A program made the translations under genes and the position numbers. From a virus, in the IMG/VR virus record IMGVR_UViG_3300042314_001246, positions 1-41,189 of that record: a DNA stretch of 41,189 nt. One strand, 5' to 3'. The notes beneath the pieces are model-generated. The model was not told where the DNA came from. It worked only from the letters and a program-made list of their open reading frames with translations, and did no database searches. Below, piece after piece: positions 3,102 to 41,103 of this stretch; positions within the stretch are counted from its first letter, which is position 1; each line of letters begins with the position of its first letter.

Positions 3102-4718
3102 TCAGTAACTTCCCCCTGCTCTCACGCTGAGGATCTCCCCTTCTATATTCGTCACTCCCGAGAGGCAGAAGTATCGCAGGCAGTCGATGGGATCCTTGAG
3201 CGCTCCGGTCTTCCCGTCCGCGCCGGTCCATTCCTTCAGCGCATGGATCGTGTTCTTACACTCCTCGGAGACGTAGAGCCTTGGCTGGTTCATGGCATCG
3301 ACCGGCTTCCCCGTGTCGTAGTGGAGCCAGTCATTGATCAGGTCGATCCCCTCGTCGATGTTCGTGCCGGGGGTGGCGACGAAGTTCAGGCCGATCTCGG
3401 CGCATTCCTCGATGAGCGTGGTCGCGCTCTCGCGGGCGACGGTGGCGGCATTCCCATAGCGGGAATCCATCCAGCGCTCGAAGACTTGCTCTCCCTTCTC
3501 CAGTCGCTCGATCTCCTCCTTGTAGCGCTCAAGTCCGAAGCCGAAGCTCTTCTGCGCCGGACCGGCTCGGCCGTCGGCCTTCTTCCCGTCGGGCTCGGCC
3601 CATGCTCCCGCGTAGCCGACGCCGTCGATGTAGTCCTGACCGGGCCACTCCCGGTAGACAAAGGCCCTGCCCGAGTCGTCGATCAGGAGCCACATCTGGA
3701 ACCAGTTCCTCCCTGAGCAGGGATCGACAAACTGGTAGCGTGTCCCCTTGGTCGGGATGCGGCTCTGCGGGATGACATGGACCCGGTCACTGAAGAGGGG
3801 GAAGCGTCCGGCGATCGCCTTGGTCGGGACGCCGTAGGCTCGGCAGAGGATCTCGGGGCGGGCGGCCTTCTCCAGCTCCTCCCTCATGCGGGTCCAGCCT
3901 GCCCAGGGATTGTTCCGGGTGTGGAAATACAAGACGCTCGCCTTCCTGCGGACGCAGCGCTGAATGACCGGCACCTTCTCATGGCCGGTGAGCGTGCGCT
4001 TCCCATCGACATCGCCGTAGATCGGGAGCAGTTCAGCATCGGCCTCCTCGACCGTCTCGGCCCCGGTGAGGTAATCCTTCACCGTGGCGGAGTAACCCTC
4101 GACCGGCGTGAATGAGACGATGAGCTTCCCATTCCGGTCAAGCAGTCGGTAGCGCATGGTGGTGAGCCAGTCGAGCGGCACCAGCTCGTCGCACCAGATG
4201 ATGTCGAGCTCGCCACCCTCGATCGTCGAGACATCCTGAGCGTAGTTGCGGAACCAGCACTGGGAGCCATTCGGAAGGACGAAGGCATTCTCCGAGAATC
4301 CGTTCTTCTGAGAGTAGGAGATATTCGTGACCTGAGTCTTCTTGGCGGTCTTCCACTCCAAGGGCATGTTGTGCCAGATGTAGGGCTGCTGCATCTCGAC
4401 CGAGTTCGGAGCGGTCGTCTGGAAGCACCAGGCACGGGCGCGAGGCTTCTCCACCAGCGCACGCATCACCTCACGGGCGGCCCATGAGGATTTCCCCGAG
4501 CGGTTGCCCCCCATGACCAGCACCTCCCGGTCATGCTCCAGCACGGCGCTGGCCCGCTTCCAGTGATCGGGCACGAATCCATGACGGAAGGGATCCTCGC
4601 GCTCCTTGCGGATCAGCTCTTCCCTAAGCTGGGCGGCGGCCAGCCACTGATCGGGGGGAAGTGTCGCGGGAGGAACCGGCAGGGCCGGGTGAGGGGTAGG
4701 TGTCCAGGATTTGCTCAT
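3102..4718 (-). CDS. terL: Terminase large subunit
   Basis: This is the packaging motor ATPase and nuclease. The N-terminal ATPase has a Walker A GGNRSGKS (about residues 70-77) and a Walker B with catalytic acid, DIIWCDE (about 171-177). The SFTPVEG segment fits the coupling motif region. The C-terminal half contains YQFVDPCSG (about 328-336), RYGNAAT and the closing DPIDCLRYF typical of the RNase-H-like nuclease. The length (538 aa) is normal. It is coupled by ATGA to the upstream HExxH protein gene. No small terminase was recognised next to it; the 5617-6102 and 718-963 products or the HTH protein at 11470 are candidates by position or fold only. Confidence 0.95.
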   Translation of the reverse strand: MSKSWTPTPHPALPVPPATLPPDQWLAAAQLREELIRKEREDPFRHGFVPDHWKRASAVLEHDREVLVMGGNRSGKSSWAAREVMRALVEKPRARAWCFQTTAPNSVEMQQPYIWHNMPLEWKTAKKTQVTNISYSQKNGFSENAFVLPNGSQCWFRNYAQDVSTIEGGELDIIWCDELVPLDWLTTMRYRLLDRNGKLIVSFTPVEGYSATVKDYLTGAETVEEADAELLPIYGDVDGKRTLTGHEKVPVIQRCVRRKASVLYFHTRNNPWAGWTRMREELEKAARPEILCRAYGVPTKAIAGRFPLFSDRVHVIPQSRIPTKGTRYQFVDPCSGRNWFQMWLLIDDSGRAFVYREWPGQDYIDGVGYAGAWAEPDGKKADGRAGPAQKSFGFGLERYKEEIERLEKGEQVFERWMDSRYGNAATVARESATTLIEECAEIGLNFVATPGTNIDEGIDLINDWLHYDTGKPVDAMNQPRLYVSEECKNTIHALKEWTGADGKTGALKDPIDCLRYFCLSGVTNIEGEILSVRAGGSY

Positions 4719-5080
4719 TTTCTCATCAGGCGGGTCAGGATCTTCTCGATCAGGAAATGCTGGAGGTAGGTGGTGGCCTCCTCGTGCTTGCGCTTCTCGC
4801 GGACGCCGCGTGAGTTGAGGATGTCGCGTGCGGCATGCAGAGTCTCATGGGCCAGAATGCCGTGCATCTCGGGGGTGGATTTCCAGTCCGTCAGGAAGAT
4901 GACGCTACCCAGCTTCTTGGTCCGCACGCTCAGGCCGTCGCTCTCCTTCAGCTCATGGACATGCTTCGGCTTGTCGCATCCCTTCTTGTGAAGCCATGCC
5001 AGGGCGCTCCGGTGATCGGCAGGCCAGACGATCCAGCATCCGTCCCGGTAGATGTCAACTTCGACGCGGTGTTCGTTCAT
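4715..5080 (-). CDS. HExxH metallopeptidase-like protein (121 aa)
   Basis: The segment MHGILAHETLHAARDIL contains a zinc-protease signature HETLH (about residues 78-82), and a later Glu pair (KHEEATTYLQ) could provide the third ligand. The fold is small, like minimal gluzincin domains found in many phages beside terminase genes; no substrate is known for these. The start and stop overlap both neighbours by ATGA, so it is made together with TerL. An inactive structural role is possible; activity is inferred from the motif only. Confidence 0.8.
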   Translation of the reverse strand: MNEHRVEVDIYRDGCWIVWPADHRSALAWLHKKGCDKPKHVHELKESDGLSVRTKKLGSVIFLTDWKSTPEMHGILAHETLHAARDILNSRGVREKRKHEEATTYLQHFLIEKILTRLMRK

Positions 5081-5253
5081 GGGTGAGGCGGAACGGTGCG
5101 GGGGGAGGGCTGAGTCGAGGGTCGAGCGTCGAGAGTCGAGGGCTTTTCTTTCTTCTTTGCGTCTCTGCGTCTCTGCGCGAAAATCCCATCCCAGTTCTCC
5201 CGATACTCCCGGCTGAAGCAGCTCCTCGGGCTGTCACCCTTCCCGGCGCTCAT
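5077..5253 (-). CDS. Small phage protein with repeat-encoded C-terminal half (58 aa)
   Basis: The first half, MSAGKGDSPRSCFSREYREN then WDGIF, matches a very common family of tiny phage proteins (pattern KGDxPR...F...YR.N.D.I). These normally end near this point. The reading frame instead continues through two micro-repeat tracts, giving AQRRRDAKKK and then PSTLDARPSTQ. The start overlaps the upstream stop and the stop overlaps the downstream start, both as ATGA, so the frame is evidently maintained across the repeats. Function unknown. Confidence 0.75.
   Translation of the reverse strand: MSAGKGDSPRSCFSREYRENWDGIFAQRRRDAKKKEKPSTLDARPSTQPSPRTVPPHP
5112..5143. repeat. GTCGAG micro-repeat, copy 1
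   Basis: The core on the plus strand is GAGTCGAGGGTCGAGCGTCG. It matches 29 of 32 bases with the minus strand of 24343-24374, inside the giant protein gene. Related tracts lie at 5438-5468 and 28921-28955. It lies within the 5077-5253 gene. Confidence 0.8.
5152..5185. repeat. GCGTCTCTGCGTCTCTGCGC micro-repeat
   Basis: The tract consists of CTCTGCGT units with a period of 9-10 bases. A second copy (CTCTGCGCCTCTGCGCCTCA) lies at 29874-29902. Similar tracts are, to my knowledge, common extragenic repeats in several bacterial phyla. Here it is translated as part of the 5077-5253 protein. Confidence 0.65.
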
Positions 5254-5576
5254 GGCTTGGCCTCCTTGATCAGCCATTGCGCCTCGCCGAGCATGTCCCC
5301 GACTCCGGCGCGGTAGCCGAGCATGAAGGCGTGCTCGAAGCGCTCCATGGCGTCGATCACTCCACTCCCCTCGCGGCCGAGATAGCGGATCCCCTCCGTC
5401 TTCCAGATCTGTTTCCAGAGCGGATCGGTCTCATCAACCTTCGGACCTAGACCTTCGACCTTCGACTCGGCACCGAAATCCATCGGGATCGTATCCTTAT
5501 CTCGTGTGATGGCCGCCCTCCGGCGCTTCTCCTCAGCCGCCTTGTAGGCATTTTCCAGCTTCGTGTCCTGTTTCAT
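5250..5576 (-). CDS. Hypothetical protein with internal repeat segment (108 aa)
   Basis: It starts MKQDTKLENAYKAAEEKRRR and ends GVGDMLGEAQWLIKEAKP. The conserved-looking C-terminal half (DPLWKQIWKTEGIRYLGREG) suggests a real phage protein, but I do not know the family. Residues of the ESKVEGLGPKVDE segment are encoded by a GTCGAAGGTCGAAGGTC tract at 5438-5468, another in-frame micro-repeat. The start at 5576 was chosen because upstream extension would overlap the previous gene deeply. The 40-bp leader contains the GAGTTC repeat at 5585-5604. Confidence 0.7.
   Translation of the reverse strand: MKQDTKLENAYKAAEEKRRRAAITRDKDTIPMDFGAESKVEGLGPKVDETDPLWKQIWKTEGIRYLGREGSGVIDAMERFEHAFMLGYRAGVGDMLGEAQWLIKEAKP
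5438..5468. repeat. GTCGAAG micro-repeat inside the 5250-5576 gene
   Basis: On the minus strand this reads GAGTCGAAGGTCGAAGGTCT and onward. It belongs to the same family as 5112-5143 and 24343-24374 and is read in frame. Confidence 0.6.
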
Positions 5577-18891: not shown

Positions 18892-21800
18892 CTACCGGCT
18901 CTTGGCCCAGGCTGATTTCATCCCGTCGGTGACCCCGTTGATCGTGCGGACGGCTCGGGCACCGGCGGCGACATCCCCCTTCTCGACAGCGGAGCGCATC
19001 GCCTCGATCTGCGGACGGTAGATCTGGCCGTTCCATTGCTTCAGCACAGCGTAGCGGAGCGTCTGCTGAGGGGTGCGGCGCTCGGCTAGCTTCTGGAGCC
19101 ATGCGTATTCGCGGGTCGCGGCGCGGACATCCTCCGAGAGATCGACGCGGACCTGGGCGATCGCCTTCTCTTCACCGGCCACCTCATCGCGGGCACGCTC
19201 AGACTCACCGGCGTCGGTGATCTTCAGGAACCGGTTGATCGGGGCGGTCGAGGAGACGGCGAACTCCGAGACCGTGTTGCTCTTCTCATCATAGCGCAGG
19301 AAGTTGGAGACACCCATTTTGTCCAGGGAGTGAATGAGCATCTTCTTGGCTGCTGGCCAGCCTCCCGCCTTCAGCTCGTCATCGGTCAGGATCGAGCGAC
19401 CGCGGTGCTCGTCGATCGGATTCATCCCGGCGGCATAGGTGGCCCATTTGGCCGGGAGGGAGAGGAATGGGTTGAGCGAGGGCAGTTCCCCTTGAGGGAC
19501 CGCCGCAATCTGGCCGAGGCCAATGCCCGTCTTCTCCCCCTTGAGCTGGCGGAGCGTCGCGGTCAGGCCGTAGTAGACCATCCCATTGATGGCGCGGTCT
19601 ACCTCATCGACCGGCCAGCGGAGATAGGCCGTCTTCGAGCCATAGTCCCCCGTGGTCGTGGTGCCCACCGGGATCGAGTGGTAGGCATAGACATCGCGGT
19701 CGGGGATCTTCCGGAAGATCCCGGCCATGTCATCCCCGAAGAATCCCTCCCTGGCGAGGACCGTCATCACCGTCGTCAGGAATCCGCCGAAGAACAGATA
19801 GCTCAGGAGATAGTCGGCCTGCGACTTGCGCCCCTTCTCCCGACCGGCGAGCAGCTTCATCGAGGACTCCCATGAGCGCATCGTGATATTGATGAAGGGG
19901 AAGAGAATCCCCGGCGTCGAGATCCCGTTCCCCTTCTTCATGTAGTTAGGGACGCCCATGTAGTTGCGGACATAGGCGGCCGCCTCACGGGTCGGCCAGC
20001 CGAGATCCTTGGCCAGCACCTTGTAGGCCGAGACCTTAGGGAGAGCCTCCATGATCTGCCCGGCAAACTGGATCGAGCGCAGATAGGAGAGGACCGGCTT
20101 GACGAACCACTTGCGGGACCATGCCGGTTGATCCTCGGCCGGGAGCATGTTGTATTGGCGGAGAATGTCACCGAGGGCACCGTGGGAATCGGCCGTCGCG
20201 TAGAAGGACTCATGCGGCCCCACCATCGCTCCGTTCTGGAGCATCTCGATCAGGAGATCATCGGCCTGACCCGAGATCCGGTTGACCAGGGGAGAGGATC
20301 CGATGTTGACCGGGATCGCGGCGAGCAGCTTGCCGAGAGCCATGCCGATGGCGCTCCCGACATAGCTTCCCACCTGACCGGCGGCCACGGCCGCGGCGGG
20401 ACCCCCGACGAATCCGATGGTCGATCCGACAGCGGTGCCGACGACGCCCCCGGCGGTCGTAGAGAGAGCCTCGCGCCCCTGCGGCTGGAGCATGGCGAGG
20501 GCGAGCTGATAGGCCTGCTGGCCGAGGATCCTCCCACGGGTCTTGTCTGGGGCATTCCGCATCGTGCGGAGCTGATCGCGCATGGGGGAGAGAGCGAGTT
20601 GGAAGGAGGGATTGTATTTGATGATCAGCGGATAGGCGGCCGAGGACCAGAGGAAGGAGAGCGCCTGCATCAGCCCGTCTTGGTGGGAGGGACTCATCGA
20701 CTCAAAGACATCCGCATAGCGCTCCGGCAGGTGGACCCCGCGGAGCTTCCCGTCCACGCGGTAGGTGAGCGTCTTCCACCCCACCTCGCGGGTCGGCACC
20801 GGCACATTGCGACGGCCATCCCAGCGCATCTCGGCATCTTGGATCAGACCGGAGAAGTTCTCCTTCATCCAGTTGAAGAAGGTAGCCTTGGCTTGATTGG
20901 ATTGGGCGGCGCGGCGCATGGCCGCCATCTTCAGGACGGATTGCGTGTAGGGATTGGCGACCTGATCGAGCGTTCCCACCTGCTTCACGATCCCGGCCGG
21001 GACATAGCGGTCGGCATACTTCAGCGGGGTGAAGGTGGCGTAGGCATCCTTGTTCGGGACCAGGAGCGTGTCGTAGATCTCCCGGGAGATGATCCCCGCA
21101 TCGACAGCCTCCGAGAGGACCGAGAAGATCTTATCATGGAATGACTCGGCCGCCTGCTGGAGGGCGCTCCATTGCTCCGGTGACATGTCGGCACGCTGCT
21201 GGTCTAGGAGAGCCTGAGCGATGACGGGATCCTTGCCGTCGGGATTGGCGATGACTGTCCGGCCGGTGACTTCGATCTCACTCTCCTGCTCGCTGGCCTT
21301 CCCGACTTGGCGTTCCACCTCGATCCGCTCATTGGCGATACGGTAGTTCTCCAGGTAGATCCCCAGGTCATCATCGGTCAGGCCGACGGATTGCAGGATG
21401 GGGGAGACCTTGGCCGTGATCTCCATGAGATCGGCCTGCACGCTGGAGTTGGCCAGCGGCATCTCCTCGAAGAGCCAGTCCATCCGATCCTCCGGCTTGA
21501 GGGGCTGGCCGGAGCGGCGCTTCTGGTGCATCAGCTCGATGGCTGGCTGTGCGTAGAAGTAATAGGTATCCTTGGCCCGCTCCCAGAGACGGCGGGGTGA
21601 CTTGGCCCATGCCTTCATGGCGGCGGAGCGGCGCTTGACCAGCTCGCTTGCCTTGGCATAGCCAGCCTTCGACTCGGCAAGCCGGGTGCGGTTGACGGCC
21701 TCGGGGCCCTTGGCTAGGAAGGTCTGGATGGCAGCGATGGCTTCGGCCACCTCCGGCTTCCGATCGACATAATTGAAGAATGCCTTCCAGAAAGTCGGAG

Positions 21801-24800
21801 CCCTCTGTTCCAGATCAGCCGGTGAGTTGAAGAGGACCGAGATAGCATCGGCATAGAGCTCCGCGGAACTGGTGCGATACTTGAAGTAGCTGGAATCGGG
21901 ATCGGTGGAATCAAGGAATGGCTTCCACCATTCGGATAATGAGATCAATTCCTGCCGGACATTGGGCTTGTAAGGGCCGGGGCCGGAATAGGCAAGCTCG
22001 CCGCCTTGAACTGCCTCCTTGACCATCTTCTTATAGAGCGCCGAAACCTTTTGATTCCACTCTTTGAGCAGCTCCCTTTGGCTGAGCAGCGGCATTGGAC
22101 CTACAATGTTTGCCGCCTCTTTCTTGATTTTCTTCAGAGACCGACCTCCGGCGATGGGGTCCAGCGGGATGGTCTGCTTTAGATACCCTAGTAGCGTCGC
22201 CAGCCTCCCGAGGATATTGCCCCGCTTGAGTGACTCGTCGGGGAGGTAGTCGATCCAGTGACCGATCTCATGGGCGAGGGTCATGGCGACTGATTGGGGA
22301 TTGGAGAAGAGAGAGGCGCGGAGGGCGATGCGTCCCTTGCCGATTCCACGGAAGAGACCCAGCGACTTCATCCGGCGCCGGACCTCGGGCGACATGCCGG
22401 TGGCTTCACGGAACCATCGGATCAGCTCGGGTGCCTCGATGGGGAGCACGCGGTCGGTGGCACCGAGGACCTCGGGCATCTCCCAGCCGGGGCCGCGTGA
22501 CATGACCGTGGCTTCCTTGGGGATGGAGGGACCGGCATCGGCAGCAGTGGCCCCACGCGATCCACCCTGCGGACCGTAGTCGGCAGTGCCTGAGAATCCC
22601 CCCGAGAACATATCCCCTTGGGCGGCATCGGCCGCGGCCTTCTCCTGACGGATGCGCTCGGCCTCGGCTAGTTCGGCGGGAGTCGGTTCAGAAGTTACCT
22701 GACCGGTCAGACTGAAGGGCATGTCGGCAGGAGCAAAGAGATTCCCCTCCCCATTGGTGGCGATGTTGGGGGTGGTAGCCGGGGCCGGGGGCGCCATCTC
22801 GGCGGCGGCCTGCTCGGGCGAGACGCCTGAGAGTTCGGCCATGATCTCCGGATCGGTGTAGAAGGACTTGTAGCGGGCGGCGAGCTGCTGGAGTTCGGCG
22901 ACGCGGTTGAGGATACCCTCCGGGTCCTTGACATTGACCCCTAGCTTGGCGGCGGCCTCGGGGCGCTTGGCCGCGGACTGCACGGCGGCGATCTGCTCAT
23001 TGATTTCGCGCACCTTGGCGGCGGCGGCGCGGGCGATTTCCTCGCCTCGCTGGAGGGCCGCGTCACTGGTTCCAAAGAGATCTCCTTGGGTTCCCTGGGC
23101 AGCCAGATCCTTGCTGGCCTTGATGTATCCGAGATAGCCGGAGATCACCTCCGGGGCCATCTTCTTGAGGGCGGCGGCGTAGCCCGCCTGCTGAAGCTCT
23201 ATGTCGTTGGGCGCCGCGGTTGCGATGGCGAGGGTTCGCGCCTCATTGATTCGACCTGCTTGGTATGCAGCGTAGAGATCAGGCCCCGCACCCGTTCCAA
23301 TTCGGAATCCGGCGCGGCCTTTAGCTCTCGATAGGAGTCCTCTCTGTGCTGCTTTATCTTCTGTAATCGAAGTGTTTCTGAAGTAGTTTGCATAATCTTT
23401 AACCTCACCTTTCTCATCGAGGATGTTCAGCTCCGCGTCAAGCGACATTGCCATCGGCTTTGTGAATCCATCCGCCTCCCTCATGACATAGGCAGGAACC
23501 GCTTCCAGCCCATTGCGTTTGGCCGCGTCAAAGCGGTGCCTTCCCGAGATCAGTTCATTGGCTCCGTTGTTGCGTTGCCAGATCATGAGATGGCCGAAGG
23601 CCCTCATGTCGATGTTCCCTTGGATCTCTTGGCCCCGGACGACGCCGGTATCAGGATTGGCATTCTCCTTGAAGTTAGGGACATCCTCCGAGAGTTTGAT
23701 GTCTGAGATCTTCAGCTTGGATTCCGTGTAGGGGATCGGGATCCCGCCGGTTGTCTCAGGATCAGTGTATCCCGTGATCGGCTCCAACTCAGCCAGGTCA
23801 TCGGCGGGAGCGGGCGTGCTTGCTGGCGCGGATGGAGACTTGTCGGGGGATGCGATCCTGGAAATGCTGAAATTACCAAACCTATAATAAGGAGGGCCTT
23901 GCACCATCTTGGTGTGACCTTCCCCAGCCGCGGCCCTGATTGCTGCTTCCCTGGATGGAAATTCATTATGTGAAGAGGGGCCCCTCGAGTCGAACCTGGT
24001 AACTCTCCAGATCTCTGGCTTGGATGGCTCCGGGGTAACTAGCAGCTTGATGGTTGGATCTTCGTTATTAACAAACTCGATGCTCCCTTGCGCCCCTGTT
24101 TGATCAACAATCGACTGGATGGCCGTCGATCTCTCCTCGCTATCCTTCCTCCACTTGGCGACGATGCCTTCTCGAGAGATCTCCCTCAGAAGCGGCCTGC
24201 CCGGCATGGCGATCGTTTCTTCGGGAGTGTTGGCCGGGACGGCATTGTTCCGGTCCATGGTGAAGGCCCCGCTCGGAGCATCCTCGATGGGGATCAGTTC
24301 GCCCAGATCAGCAGGCGCGGCTGCGGGAGGTCGTCCCGGCAGGCCCTCGACTCTCGATCCTCGACCTTCGACTCCCTCACCCATCGCCACCTCAGTCTTG
24401 AGCGCCTCGGGCTTGCCCAGGAAGGAGGTTCCCTGCATCCGCATGGTGCCTCGGGCAGTGGGTCCATACTCACCCCGGACGGCATCGGTGACGCGGAGCG
24501 CGGTGGAGACCGCCTCCTCATCCATGGGAGAGAGGGATTCACCGGCCTGCTTCTTGGAGACGAGTGACTGGATGTCGCCCATCTCATAGCGCTTGTTCTG
24601 GACAGTGAGCCCCGAGAGGAGCGCTCCCATGACGGCGGACTGGAAGGAGGACTGGAAGGTCGGCCCCTCGGGCGTCTCATCCCCGGAGGCGAGTGCCTGA
24701 TCGGCCAGCCTCCAGGTGATGTCGGTGGCGGCACCGGTCCCGGCTCCGAGCCCGACGACCTTGCCTGCGAACTTGGCGGCTTCGAGCGCACCCTTGGTCT

Positions 24801-25563
24801 CGCGCACAAGCTGGATCCCCTTGATCAGATTGTAGGGGGCGGCGGGAGCGGTGATGGCGATGGAGGCCAACTCACCGGCCGCATTGTATCCGGGCCGGGC
24901 TTGGCTGGCTGCGAGGTAGCTGGAGAACTCCGAGTCGTTCTCGGCCAGTGTCTTGTAGAGAGCATCGTATCCCCTGCCTGCGGCATAGCCTCCCGCGATG
25001 CCTCCGGCTGTTCCGGTGATCAGGGCGGCTGGACCGGCTGTCATCCCGGCAACGGCGGGGATGGCGGCCCCTCCCAGGAATCCCATCGTGACGGCTCCAC
25101 CCCGGCCTGCTCCGTAGAGGAGGGCCTTCCCCTCGGGGGAGGATCCGGCCGTGGCCTCCAGATCGCGGCGGCGGCGTGCGCTCTCCTCGATCTTGGCGGC
25201 GTTGGGAGAGAGCTTGGCGAAGGTGGCCTGGTCGATGAGGCCAGCGGCATAGGCCGACTGGATGCCGGACCCGTAGCGGAGGGGATCGAGCTCGATGCCT
25301 GCGGATGTCACCTTATAGGGCTGAGACTTCTCATTCCATCGGTTGGCCGGTGAGAGGGGATCGGTTCCCTCGGGGGCAGAGCCCGCCTTGGCCGGATCGA
25401 GGGGGACGCCGGAGCGGTCCACGGCGAGCAGGGGAGGATTCTCACTGGCGTCGAGGGGCGAGACATACTCCAGCTCCGAGAGAGGATCGGGGGTTGATTG
25501 TGACGCCTCGATCGGCCCGACATAATCGAGCGCGGCCAGCTCGTCCTGCGAGGGAGCGGCCAT
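18892..25563 (-). CDS. Giant polyvalent ejection protein with ParB-like and HExxH domains (2223 aa)
   Basis: Domain order: N-terminal tandem motifs (LAALDYVGPIEAS, LSELEYVSPLDAS) and Gly/Ala-rich hydrophobic segments (about 150-300); low-complexity linker; ParB/DdrB-like domain about 615-700 with ISGRHRFDAAKRNG; helical linker; zinc-protease motif TLAHEIGHWIDYLPD about 1095-1109; helical region; and a C-terminal part (about 1600-2150, ALSFLWSSAAYPLIIKYNPS) resembling the LPD38 domain of phage polyvalent proteins. Hydrophobic segments near 1700-1744 and 1914-1941 could insert in membranes. Such proteins travel in the virion and act in the newly infected cell. It is the last gene of the leftward block. 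A micro-repeat is read in frame near residue 400. Confidence 0.85.
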   Translation of the reverse strand: MAAPSQDELAALDYVGPIEASQSTPDPLSELEYVSPLDASENPPLLAVDRSGVPLDPAKAGSAPEGTDPLSPANRWNEKSQPYKVTSAGIELDPLRYGSGIQSAYAAGLIDQATFAKLSPNAAKIEESARRRRDLEATAGSSPEGKALLYGAGRGGAVTMGFLGGAAIPAVAGMTAGPAALITGTAGGIAGGYAAGRGYDALYKTLAENDSEFSSYLAASQARPGYNAAGELASIAITAPAAPYNLIKGIQLVRETKGALEAAKFAGKVVGLGAGTGAATDITWRLADQALASGDETPEGPTFQSSFQSAVMGALLSGLTVQNKRYEMGDIQSLVSKKQAGESLSPMDEEAVSTALRVTDAVRGEYGPTARGTMRMQGTSFLGKPEALKTEVAMGEGVEGRGSRVEGLPGRPPAAAPADLGELIPIEDAPSGAFTMDRNNAVPANTPEETIAMPGRPLLREISREGIVAKWRKDSEERSTAIQSIVDQTGAQGSIEFVNNEDPTIKLLVTPEPSKPEIWRVTRFDSRGPSSHNEFPSREAAIRAAAGEGHTKMVQGPPYYRFGNFSISRIASPDKSPSAPASTPAPADDLAELEPITGYTDPETTGGIPIPYTESKLKISDIKLSEDVPNFKENANPDTGVVRGQEIQGNIDMRAFGHLMIWQRNNGANELISGRHRFDAAKRNGLEAVPAYVMREADGFTKPMAMSLDAELNILDEKGEVKDYANYFRNTSITEDKAAQRGLLSRAKGRAGFRIGTGAGPDLYAAYQAGRINEARTLAIATAAPNDIELQQAGYAAALKKMAPEVISGYLGYIKASKDLAAQGTQGDLFGTSDAALQRGEEIARAAAAKVREINEQIAAVQSAAKRPEAAAKLGVNVKDPEGILNRVAELQQLAARYKSFYTDPEIMAELSGVSPEQAAAEMAPPAPATTPNIATNGEGNLFAPADMPFSLTGQVTSEPTPAELAEAERIRQEKAAADAAQGDMFSGGFSGTADYGPQGGSRGATAADAGPSIPKEATVMSRGPGWEMPEVLGATDRVLPIEAPELIRWFREATGMSPEVRRRMKSLGLFRGIGKGRIALRASLFSNPQSVAMTLAHEIGHWIDYLPDESLKRGNILGRLATLLGYLKQTIPLDPIAGGRSLKKIKKEAANIVGPMPLLSQRELLKEWNQKVSALYKKMVKEAVQGGELAYSGPGPYKPNVRQELISLSEWWKPFLDSTDPDSSYFKYRTSSAELYADAISVLFNSPADLEQRAPTFWKAFFNYVDRKPEVAEAIAAIQTFLAKGPEAVNRTRLAESKAGYAKASELVKRRSAAMKAWAKSPRRLWERAKDTYYFYAQPAIELMHQKRRSGQPLKPEDRMDWLFEEMPLANSSVQADLMEITAKVSPILQSVGLTDDDLGIYLENYRIANERIEVERQVGKASEQESEIEVTGRTVIANPDGKDPVIAQALLDQQRADMSPEQWSALQQAAESFHDKIFSVLSEAVDAGIISREIYDTLLVPNKDAYATFTPLKYADRYVPAGIVKQVGTLDQVANPYTQSVLKMAAMRRAAQSNQAKATFFNWMKENFSGLIQDAEMRWDGRRNVPVPTREVGWKTLTYRVDGKLRGVHLPERYADVFESMSPSHQDGLMQALSFLWSSAAYPLIIKYNPSFQLALSPMRDQLRTMRNAPDKTRGRILGQQAYQLALAMLQPQGREALSTTAGGVVGTAVGSTIGFVGGPAAAVAAGQVGSYVGSAIGMALGKLLAAIPVNIGSSPLVNRISGQADDLLIEMLQNGAMVGPHESFYATADSHGALGDILRQYNMLPAEDQPAWSRKWFVKPVLSYLRSIQFAGQIMEALPKVSAYKVLAKDLGWPTREAAAYVRNYMGVPNYMKKGNGISTPGILFPFINITMRSWESSMKLLAGREKGRKSQADYLLSYLFFGGFLTTVMTVLAREGFFGDDMAGIFRKIPDRDVYAYHSIPVGTTTTGDYGSKTAYLRWPVDEVDRAINGMVYYGLTATLRQLKGEKTGIGLGQIAAVPQGELPSLNPFLSLPAKWATYAAGMNPIDEHRGRSILTDDELKAGGWPAAKKMLIHSLDKMGVSNFLRYDEKSNTVSEFAVSSTAPINRFLKITDAGESERARDEVAGEEKAIAQVRVDLSEDVRAATREYAWLQKLAERRTPQQTLRYAVLKQWNGQIYRPQIEAMRSAVEKGDVAAGARAVRTINGVTDGMKSAWAKSR
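24343..24374. repeat. GTCGAG micro-repeat inside the giant gene
   Basis: On the minus strand it matches the plus strand of 5112-5143 in 29 of 32 bases, so the two copies are inverted on the map. It is read in frame as GVEGRGSRVEG in a low-complexity linker between structured parts of the protein. Confidence 0.8.
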
Positions 25564-26783: not shown

Positions 26784-27080
26784 CTAGGAGTTGGGGGTTG
26801 GGATGGAGAGACCGGCTGCGGCGCGGGCCTCTAGGCAGAGTGGTGATCCTGCGGTGAATGAGCGGCAGGCGGCCGGACGAATCCCGTAGATGGAGCATCC
26901 GACCGAGACGCCGACTGATCCGGTGAGGGCGATGCAGCGGTTGTTGAAGGTCTTCATCAGGGGAAGGTCAGAGCGTGTCAGTGACGGGTCGATGCCCTCG
27001 GCGTCGGAGCGGTCTCGCCTGAGAATGGGCCAGCTCCACTTATGGGAGCAGCAGGCCCCGCAGGATTGGCAGTCGAACAT
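26784..27080 (-). CDS. YkgJ-type CxxCxxCC metal-binding protein (98 aa)
   Basis: MFDCQSCGACCSHKWSWPIL has the CxxCxxCC signature at residues 4-11; later Cys occur in NNRCIAL, VGCSIYGIRPAACRSF and SPLCLEA. This is the pattern of the YkgJ / UPF0153 family thought to chelate zinc or an iron-sulfur cluster. The gene starts inside the 3' end of the PAPS-reductase-like gene, 103 bases overlapping in another frame. The overlap implies tight coupling of the two products. Confidence 0.8.
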   Translation of the reverse strand: MFDCQSCGACCSHKWSWPILRRDRSDAEGIDPSLTRSDLPLMKTFNNRCIALTGSVGVSVGCSIYGIRPAACRSFTAGSPLCLEARAAAGLSIPTPNS

Positions 27081-27871
27081 CTCAGGTTGCAGTAGTCGAA
27101 GCTCGGCTCATGGACGGCCACCTTCTCCGAGACATTGGCGATGATTGCGCCGTTCCTCTTGGGGCAGGCGACATAGTCATCCTCGCGGTGATCGAGGCAT
27201 CGGAGGCAGGCATGGTAGTAGTCGCTGTTGAGGTGCTTGTCGGCCTTGGTAACGAGCACCCCGTCGATCAGGTCATACCTCCCCTCGTCCCACGGGATCT
27301 CACTGGAAACAAGGTAGGAGGAAACATCCTCGTCTGTCCAGTCCCGAAGCGGGTAGGAGATGGAGGCGCTGCCGTCGATCTCCAGGAGATCGAGGTTCAA
27401 GGGGATCGGCCCGGAGAGCGGGTCGCTGTCATCGCTCTTGTGACCGCAGAGCAGGAGGTCCCAGGGGAACTCCACCTTGGCGGCCTTGGGGCGTTCCAGC
27501 CATTCCCTCCCGCAGACATAGGGACGGCCCTCCTCGTGGGGCTCGGTGCCGCGTGCGATGACCAGCGCCTGAGATCCGATGGAGTAGCTCTCCATGACAT
27601 CGACACGACCCTTGCCGTGGCAGAGGGCGGCCGAGATGGGAAGGGCGTCATGGATGGTGAGTCCCCACTCCGCGGCGAGCCTGTTCTGGAAGGTCCACTT
27701 CTGCTTCATCCACGGGAGCTGGAGCTGGATGCACTCGATCTCGGGCATCACCTGACGGGTCAGGTGCAGCAAGGCGGTCGAGTCCTTGCCTCCTGACCAG
27801 AGCAGAGCCGGACGGCGGGCGCCCTTGAGGGCGATCCGGATCTTCTCAAGTGTGGAGGGGATGGATGGCAT
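26978..27871 (-). CDS. PAPS reductase-like PP-loop ATPase (297 aa)
   Basis: The PP-loop LLWSGGKDSTALLHLTRQVM (about residues 23-42) is the nucleotide-binding motif of PAPS reductases and related ATP-pyrophosphatases. Further family-like features are LPLRDWTDEDVSSYL-type text (SYPLRDWTDEDVSSYLVSSE) and Cys pairs CLRCLDHREDDYVACPKRNG that could hold a metal or Fe-S centre. Such genes are frequent in phages, where the substrate is unsettled: sulfate assimilation, or DndC-like sulfur or base modification. The unstructured C-terminal 35 residues lie in the overlap with the YkgJ-type gene and may be a by-product of it. Confidence 0.85.
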   Translation of the reverse strand: MPSIPSTLEKIRIALKGARRPALLWSGGKDSTALLHLTRQVMPEIECIQLQLPWMKQKWTFQNRLAAEWGLTIHDALPISAALCHGKGRVDVMESYSIGSQALVIARGTEPHEEGRPYVCGREWLERPKAAKVEFPWDLLLCGHKSDDSDPLSGPIPLNLDLLEIDGSASISYPLRDWTDEDVSSYLVSSEIPWDEGRYDLIDGVLVTKADKHLNSDYYHACLRCLDHREDDYVACPKRNGAIIANVSEKVAVHEPSFDYCNLRCSTANPAGPAAPISGAGPFSGETAPTPRASTRH

Positions 27872-28771: not shown

Positions 28772-28811
28772 TATTAGGTGATAGGGGTTAGGTAATGGGT
28801 GATAAGGGCTG
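28772..28811. repeat. GGTGATAGGGGTTAGG micro-repeat at a gene junction
   Basis: The tract GGTGATAGGGGTTAGGTAAT continues GGGTGATAAGGG. It covers the last codons (PLSPIT) of the 28788-29162 gene and the leader of the 27873-28769 gene. Confidence 0.5.
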
Positions 28812-29162
28812 ATACCCGACCTTGCGGGCAAAGCGATCCCACCGGTAGGCATGGATCTTGAATCCATTGTTCCGGCGGAAGAGGATCCAGTCGTGGGGAT
28901 GGGGAGCGACTTGAAGGAGCAGAGCCAAGGTTGAGGGTTGAGGGTCGAACGTCGAAGGCTGAATGACCGCCAGCTCCACGAACCAGGCATTTGGTGGACC
29001 CTTGAGGATCTCCATCCTGTTCCAGCAGACCTCGCTCGCCAGCATGAAGGCTGAGCGGGTGGAATAGACCAGCCCACACGACAAGTGCCAGCCCAACCGC
29101 TCCTCGAAGGGAACGGTCGAATGATCCTGCCACCATGTGCGTGCCGTGTCCCATGGGAGCAT
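28788..29162 (-). CDS. Hypothetical protein interrupted by a micro-repeat (124 aa)
   Basis: The N-terminal half (MLPWDTARTWWQDHSTVPFE; RSAFMLASEVCWNRMEILKG) and the C-terminal part (HPHDWILFRRNNGFKIHAYR) look like one folded domain. Between them lies VIQPSTFDPQPSTLA, encoded by the CCTCAACCCTCAACC tract at 28921-28955. The start overlaps the fibre gene stop by one base (TAATG). Small proteins of this kind are often found between fibre and ejection genes; function unknown. Confidence 0.65.
   Translation of the reverse strand: MLPWDTARTWWQDHSTVPFEERLGWHLSCGLVYSTRSAFMLASEVCWNRMEILKGPPNAWFVELAVIQPSTFDPQPSTLALLLQVAPHPHDWILFRRNNGFKIHAYRWDRFARKVGYQPLSPIT
28921..28955. repeat. GGTTGAGGGTCGAACGTCGA micro-repeat inside a gene
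   Basis: It belongs to the GTCGAG family of 5112-5143 and carries a GGTTGAGGGTTGAGG extension. It is read in frame in the 28788-29162 gene, interrupting what looks like a single domain. Confidence 0.55.
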
Positions 29163-40032: not shown

Positions 40033-40056
40033 CTATCCGAGGAGTTATCCGAGGAG
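40033..40056. repeat. Tandem 12-bp duplication at the scaffold gene end
   Basis: TATCCGAGGAGT is followed by TATCCGAGGAGT with the scaffold stop codon lying between the units (minus strand SLLG-stop, LLG-stop). This suggests a recent slippage duplication that created a second in-frame stop. Confidence 0.6.
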
Positions 40057-41103
40057 TGATTCCATGAGGGCTGCGACCGAGTCCCGGTCGCCTTGACCCT
40101 CCAAAACTTTCTTGAGTGACGCCGCGTCTCGCGCCGTCTTGGCCGGGATCTTCGATTTTCCTGTCACCTTCGGAGGTTCTGGCGCGGGTGACTGCGCCTT
40201 CCGGGACGGGGAAGCGGACGGGGCCGTGGCTGATTTCGCCTTGGCCTGTGCTTCCTGACGCGCCATGCGGGCCTGCTGGCCGACAAGGGCGTCACCGATG
40301 ATGAGCTCCACGTTGGGGTATTTTCCCAGCGCCGGATACTGCTTGAGGATGTCGCGGAGGGCCTTGCTCTCGGAGGATCCCTGGGTGAAGAAGGCGGGGT
40401 AGGCCGCTCGGGCTTCGTTCACACTGGTCTCCCGCTGGGTCAGCCATTCCTTCCGTGCCGGTCCGTGATCGGTCACGATCGCGTCGGCGGCGGCGAGGTG
40501 TCGTGCCATCTCGGCGGGTTCGACATACTCCTCGCTTCCATCGGCCCCTTTCACGGTGGCCCCGTCGCGGTGGCTCATGGCCCAGGTCCGCACCCGCTTG
40601 GCGGTGGCGATCCTGGCATCCAGCTCCTCGATGCTCTCGACGTCGGAAAGCGGATCCTCGGGGGTCGGTTGGAGCACCACCTTGGATGCACCGGCCAGTT
40701 CCACCCTGAGCTTCTCGGCTTCCTCGCGGCTCTTCTCCAGCGCCTCTTCGGCCTCGCGCCTCTTGGCGGTCAGCTTGTCGATGCGCTTGAGCAGCTTGTC
40801 CGCCTTGGGGGACCGGGCCTCGCCCTTCTCTGTGTCCTCGTCGGCTTCGTCCGCGTCGTCGTTCTCCTCGTCGGATGATTCCTCATCCTGCTCGGAGTCA
40901 TTCTCTTGCTTCTCGTCGTCCGGCGTGGAGGCTTCCTCCTGCCCGGACGGTGCTGTCTCATCGTTCCCGGAGTCTTCGGTGGCCTCGGGCTTTTCAGCCT
41001 CGGGCTCCTCTTGCTCCGTTGCGGACTGGGTCAGTTCATTCCGGAGGTTCTCCGGGAGGAACGCCGCGATGTCCGTCAGGTCGATCTCGTTCTCTGCTGC
41101 CAT
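40045..41103 (-). CDS. Scaffold-like capsid assembly protein (352 aa)
   Basis: A long acidic first third (EEPEAEKPEATEDSGNDETA and similar) leads to a helical coiled-coil centre (KLLKRIDKLTAKRREAEEAL, EKSREEAEKLRVELAGASKV). A basic C-terminal end (KVTGKSKIPAKTARDAASLK) follows. This is the usual layout of podovirus scaffolding proteins whose basic tail docks on capsid subunits. Directly upstream of the major capsid gene. The start at 41103 has an AGGGGA site. Assignment rests on composition and position. Confidence 0.8.
   Translation of the reverse strand: MAAENEIDLTDIAAFLPENLRNELTQSATEQEEPEAEKPEATEDSGNDETAPSGQEEASTPDDEKQENDSEQDEESSDEENDDADEADEDTEKGEARSPKADKLLKRIDKLTAKRREAEEALEKSREEAEKLRVELAGASKVVLQPTPEDPLSDVESIEELDARIATAKRVRTWAMSHRDGATVKGADGSEEYVEPAEMARHLAAADAIVTDHGPARKEWLTQRETSVNEARAAYPAFFTQGSSESKALRDILKQYPALGKYPNVELIIGDALVGQQARMARQEAQAKAKSATAPSASPSRKAQSPAPEPPKVTGKSKIPAKTARDAASLKKVLEGQGDRDSVAALMESLLG

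Follow-up and report, generated by a model that had tools for sequence, protein, structure and literature searches.

In-frame micro-repeat tracts in the linker of a small phage gene

Introduction

The virus record IMGVR_UViG_3300042314_001246 (41,189 bases, analysed over its full length and called the window below) encodes a terminase, a portal-like protein and an integrase-like protein. Near the terminase gene lies a small gene whose reading frame passes through tandem micro-repeats of two unrelated families, and this raises the question of which part of the protein these repeats make up and how they came to lie in an open frame. In-frame repeats are known from Rickettsia, where palindromic elements are inserted in protein-coding genes, and the genomes of lambdoid phages are mosaics of modules with short boundary sequences. 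The short tandemly repeated repetitive sequences of cyanobacteria are a class of repeat related to the one considered here. Heptamer tandem repeats have been described for Beggiatoaceae, Cyanobacteria and Bacteroidetes (unit TAACTGA; PMC4679880) and for Xanthomonas and Nostoc (units GGGAATC and GGGGATT; PMC4692102), and neither paper mentions phages.

Results

The small gene and its two repeat tracts

The frame of the small gene begins with the ATG at 5253 and ends with the TGA at 5079-5077, encoding the product MSAGKGDSPRSCFSREYRENWDGIFAQRRRDAKKKEKPSTLDARPSTQPSPRTVPPHP. An alternative, longer in-frame start is present at 5277; the start at 5253 is favoured by the relatives. The ATGA overlaps reported for both ends by an earlier note on this DNA are indeed present (Table 1). 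No curated family was matched and no function assigned when the protein was compared with Pfam and PHROGs, Foldseek gave no function, and tblastn against cultured phages returned nothing useful. The structure could be modelled only poorly (mean pLDDT 64), and the model suggests, at low confidence, a single helix at residues 15-34 with no fold elsewhere.

Table 1 Features of the small gene and its surroundings in the window.
Feature	Position	Strand	Basis or remark
Terminase large subunit	3102..4718	-	Marker for defining related phages
Downstream gene, 121 aa	4715..5080	-	phrog_1365 (no function attached to that family)
ATGA overlap, TGA of small gene with ATG of next gene	5077..5080	-	
Small phage gene, 58 aa: core, repeat linker, tail	5077..5253	-	Homologues in viral contigs
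Tail codons RTVPPHP, non-repeat, conserved, under purifying selection	5080..5100	-	
Variable linker, 26 codons, mostly tandem micro-repeat	5101..5178	-	
Heptamer tract, about 4 copies; GTCGAGN on + (NCTCGAC on coding strand)	5114..5142	-	TRF, GTCGAGG x 4.1
Octamer tract, 3 copies; unit CGCAGAGA on coding strand (TCTCTGCG on +)	5154..5177	-	TRF, TCTCTGCG x 3.0
Conserved 25-aa core MSAGKGDSPRSCFSREYRENWDGIF	5179..5253	-	Alignment of 15 members
ATGA overlap, TGA of upstream gene with ATG of small gene	5250..5253	-	
Upstream gene with its own inter-block linker (IPMDF..DPLWK)	5250..5576	-	
Heptamer tract (ACCTTCG on +), in frame in upstream gene	5437..5466	-	TRF
GTCGAG-type tract, in frame (GVEGRGSRVEG), in 2223-aa ORF 18892-25563	24344..24372	-	

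The two micro-repeat families that the earlier note had read in this frame are both recovered by TRF. The window holds 7 tracts, compared with a mean of 0.0 in 20 dinucleotide shuffles of the whole window at equal threshold, so that its tracts, like the 5-11-nt tandem simple sequence repeats (SSRs) of bacteria, are tandem arrays beyond chance. The pattern CTCTGCGTCTCTGCG is matched 4 times with at most 2 mismatches (0.26 expected), and the pattern GTCGAGRGTCGAG 17 times (3.9 expected). These tracts are direct repeats, and their units are not palindromic as those of the Rickettsia elements are.

Core, linker and tail among relatives

Relatives were collected with the downstream protein and with the small protein itself: genes closely related to the downstream gene occur in 10 contigs, and the search with the small protein, which was repeated with a wider alignment, gave 176 loci in viral contigs, of which 80 were retained. 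The small protein carries the motif MSAGKGxxPR...(F/Y)RxN(Y/W/F)DxIF of the MSAGKG family of small phage proteins, in agreement with the assignment of its N-terminal half to a common tiny phage protein family in the earlier note. The same note held that this family normally ends near WDGIF and that the second half of the gene is made of repeats, and both statements apply in part. Some distant members do end soon after the core (29 aa in L206 and 33 aa in L207), but this phage group runs on to a tail with the consensus RTV[P/S]PHP; and the repeats fill the middle of the gene but not its last 7 codons. Between core and tail the linker is wholly unconserved.

In L154, L155, L156 and L158 the linkers have no tracts and the RTV[PS]PHP tail is still present, so the tail is not produced by the tracts. 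These four come near to the same C-terminus without the repeats, the finding that the earlier note had named as speaking against its own reading. The repeats accordingly sit in the linker of an existing gene, and are not an extension of a finished one.

Reading frame, selection and translational coupling

A DNA search for the tail through all six frames of the collected sequence found it in frame with an MSAGKG start in 20 of 20 distinct contexts (18 listed by the search, and two Zn-ribbon versions that exceeded the search span and are in frame by comparison of the linkers). If the frame were irrelevant, the chance of this for about 13 linker architectures would be about (1/3)^12, a value that serves as a guide only, since the architectures are not fully independent. 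When the whole viral collection was scanned for the tail at the DNA level, 18 contigs were returned, and the ones examined are members of this family.

Among 19 members the additional bases in the tail fall on codon positions 1, 2 and 3 in the numbers 3, 0 and 13. When the window type is compared with L138, there are 2 synonymous and 7 nonsynonymous changes in the linker, and 3 and 0, respectively, in the tail. In three pairs of the window type the nonsynonymous changes of the linker equal or exceed the synonymous ones, and the tail has no nonsynonymous change. The tail is thus under purifying selection, with the linker nearly free. The frame is very probably translated, because third codon positions take most of the changes in the tail and the frame is conserved; this is what the earlier note had supposed of a tolerated chimeric frame.

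Its use of the ATGA overlaps as proof of translation does not hold, since four relatives have lost the downstream overlap and kept the tail. These four also bear on a further explanation, namely that the frame is retained only for ribosomes to reach the ATGA and the next gene, the linker and tail peptides being irrelevant. Most members do have ATGA at the stop of the small gene, and in L376 nearly the whole core is deleted while frame, tail and ATGA are kept (MSAGKGDGLAPKPLAPSPRTVPPHP). However, in L012, L147, L149 and L167 the downstream overlap is lost (the stop is followed by a heptamer tract and then by ATG), yet the RTV/RSV-PHP tail is retained, so coupling alone is insufficient; nor is a predominance of third-position changes in the tail expected from it. 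Coupling as the whole explanation is therefore unlikely.

Different linkers between the same ends

In about 20 related phages the slot between core and tail is occupied by different tracts, giving about 13 linker architectures, most of which differ in repeat origin. The occupants are the octamer, GTCGAGN in either orientation, AAAGGCG, GGAACTCA, CCTAACAG, a 37-nt palindromic element and a Zn-ribbon insert. The linker of the window, octamer with inverted GTCGAGN, is also found in L004, L005/L133, L006/L134 and L135-L138. The linker starts with GTCGAGN in the opposite orientation in L012, L142, L144 and L151, and with AAAGGCG-type units in L139 and L167; L146 has two GTCGAGN tracts, both opposite to that of the window, and L147 has ACGCGGAG together with GGAACTCA. 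Further on, CCTAACAG/CCTAGAG units are present in L139, L142, L144, L148 and L151. When considering the linkers that share a GGCCAGCAA hinge (L012, L149, L142 and L139), it is seen that left and right pieces combine independently around it.

L141/L145 are hybrids, with the octamer at the left, the last GTCGAG units at the right and a Zn-ribbon-like segment between them, one breakpoint lying inside the octamer tract and the other inside the heptamer tract. These breakpoints and the independent linker pieces point to recombination at short shared sequences and to later selection that favours an open frame. Zn-ribbon-like segments are seen in frame in the small gene of L141, L145 and L143, where they either separate core and tail or replace the tail.

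The 37-nt palindromic element (GCCGTAACGGATGCGAAGCAACGGCCGGGCAAGCAAA) is dispersed in phages, at L245:2323, L240:6997, L246 (minus strand, 13217), L248 (minus strand, 727 and 5800) and L249 (minus strand, 13244); Chthoniobacterales genomes (loci L383-L401 of these putative hosts) also carry it, one of them with up to 69 copies. In the phages as well as in these genomes it often lies inside micro-repeat tracts. Only in L143 and L148 is it in frame in the small gene, flanked by two GTCGAG tracts.

It could be supposed that each phage lineage has grown its own repeat in place by polymerase slippage and substitution, with neither import nor recombination, and slippage has been proposed as the mechanism for over-represented bacterial heptamers (PMC4679880, PMC4692102). 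Such growth accounts for copy number but not for the identity of the families, and it sits poorly with the recurrence of identical unit families at many sites and in other genomes, with both orientations of GTCGAGN at one site, with a palindromic element and a Zn-ribbon segment placed between tract units, and with hybrid linkers broken inside tracts. It is quite improbable as the origin of the linkers.

Tracts in other genes, phages and bacterial genomes

In the upstream gene the conserved blocks IPMDF and DPLWK bracket another changing linker, which consists of GTCGAAG units in the window, of octamer units in G002, G003 and G009, and of a non-repeat, DIVENPGIYAE-type sequence in distant relatives. 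The effect is thus not confined to the small gene: the upstream gene shows the same exchange, and the 2223-aa ORF also carries tract units in frame. GTCGAG-type units are in frame in a small ORF at 28788-29015 (MEILKGPPNAWFVELAVIQPSTFDPQPSTLALLLQVAPHP...) as well. An apparent tract in the gene at 2000-2323 was set aside, the start of that gene being unsure.

Related phages were defined by the terminase, which was common to 24 of the 25 records searched, and the contigs of those were fetched and scanned. The tract density reaches up to 1.2 per kb, compared with about zero in shuffles, and comprises about 20 families. In 10 phage contigs, 174 of 208 tracts lie outside called genes although genes cover 86% of the sequence; our gene caller overlooked the small gene itself, so a few of the 174 are actually coding. 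Tracts open in all six frames make up 17 of 26 in coding sequence and 39 of 166 between genes (Fisher p = 4e-5, related sequences being counted more than once). In G002, neither the linker tract of the small gene (10863) nor an intergenic tract (10625) is open in all six frames.

This crowding at gene junctions would also be expected if the tracts were functional sites (regulator binding, RNA structure, a packaging or uptake signal) and their coding location were incidental, and a regulatory role has been proposed for the intergenic TAACTGA heptamers of Beggiatoaceae (PMC4679880). At one site, however, tract family, orientation and presence vary among close relatives, which a fixed site-specific function would forbid, and we consider this reading highly improbable. 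An origin of the repeats in assembly errors or in simple sequence arising by chance is extremely improbable. The sources are metagenome contigs, in which short repeats can cause misjoins, but the two-tract linker recurs in 7 further contigs, where the protein has an identity of 83% or more and the neighbour genes differ; shuffles yield essentially no tracts, and the frame is conserved.

Recombination with breakpoints in tracts leads to the question of whether the tracts are also hot spots for the exchange of neighbouring genes, and for this the support is weak. Junctions are variable in 0.73 of the comparisons with tracts and in 0.58 of those without, in data points that are non-independent. 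Most of this difference is due to indels, and spacer length is a confounder; the tracts were therefore not retained as strong hot spots.

The comparison of the tracts with bacterial genomes, proposed in the earlier note, gives two outcomes. The families are abundant in some Chthoniobacterales: as with the bacterial SSRs, copies are dispersed and mainly intergenic in the phage contigs, tens of copies are present in some of these genomes, and the tract families of the phages together with the palindromic element are dense in one subset of genomes of 2-2.5 Mb. The octamer is found much more widely. A 30-base octamer-plus-flank pattern is absent from the genome contigs searched, and a 23-base version has matches in many phyla, so the octamer alone is not diagnostic of the host. 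Arrays of the form CGCAGAGRCGCAGAGACGCARAG (L014-L093) are seen in Nostoc, Acidobacteria, Bacteroidetes, Chloroflexi, Proteobacteria and Verrucomicrobia, and their left flanks are often similar (TTCTCG, TTTCAC, TTTTAA). The hosts are probably small-genome Chthoniobacterales (Verrucomicrobiota), as judged from the shared repeat families. A search of 197 Chthoniobacterales genomes revealed no prophage whose TerL is highly identical to this one, the best full-length match being 54%.

Discussion

The best explanation overall is probably that the gene encodes a core and a tail with an exchangeable repeat linker between them, exchanged by recombination with breakpoints in tracts and filtered by selection for the frame. 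The small protein has three parts: at the N-terminus a conserved core that is probably helical, then a linker tolerant of sequence change, and at the C-terminus the conserved peptide RTV[P/S]PHP. In these phages, gene junctions are filled with 7-9-nt tandem micro-repeats of families that are probably those of the host, and illegitimate recombination with breakpoints in the tracts, between phages or between phage and host, would swap the segment between core and tail. The products that survive would be those that are in frame, free of stops and still provided with the tail. Stop-free units such as CGCAGAGR, GTCGAGN and AAAGGCG would thereby become protein linkers, and the linker may be a disordered tether that joins the helical core to the short C-terminal peptide.

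Tentatively, it is also possible that the tracts act more generally as short homologies shared by host and phage, driving the non-homologous exchange of modules and linkers, with stop-free units as ready-made in-frame linkers and with the mobile 37-nt palindromic element landing in tracts.

When compared with the bacterial 5-11-nt tandem SSRs, the tracts are alike in being arrays of 7-8-nt units, with many dispersed and mainly intergenic copies and a patchy distribution across phyla. They differ in occurring in phages, with many families per genome, and in that the families replace one another in one protein linker, where selection on the frame is visible. The likeness to the in-frame palindromic elements of Rickettsia, drawn in the earlier note, is a fair analogy: in both systems repeats common to non-coding DNA are in frame in unrelated genes and tolerated as extra peptide, and L143 and L148 even carry a real palindromic element there, whereas the tracts of the window are direct tandem repeats in an existing linker. 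As in mosaic phage modules, related phages differ in which genes adjoin at a gene border, but here the borders carry host-type micro-repeats of about 20 families and the exchange reaches inside a reading frame. With the MSAGKG-type small phage proteins the identical 25-aa core type is shared; some distant members stop after it, whereas this group adds RTV[PS]PHP and an often repeat-filled linker.

A search of the open literature for the repeat sequences gave no relevant paper, and in the library searched, which is incomplete, no account was found of phages in which several micro-repeat families take each other's place, in frame, between two constant ends of a protein. Repeats of this class are already known; their combinatorial, in-frame swapping as a linker in phages looks new. 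It suggests that short tandem repeats can serve as interchangeable linkers in the remodelling of proteins, and it touches on two old questions, namely the way in which phages bring unrelated modules together and the origin of new linker peptides. One short gene here offers a natural series of about 13 linkers with the same conserved ends, all in frame, in which it can be tested whether the abundant and unexplained 7-9-nt micro-repeats of bacteria provide endpoints for recombination and supply protein sequence.

Other features of the window

A gene with a PAPS reductase domain (26978-27871) lies close to the structural genes. The two ends of the window share a repeat (3-67 and 40924-40988) of 65 identical bases, followed by similar sequence, and the ORF at 3-182 is similar to the beginning of that at 40045-41103, as with a terminally redundant or duplicated end.
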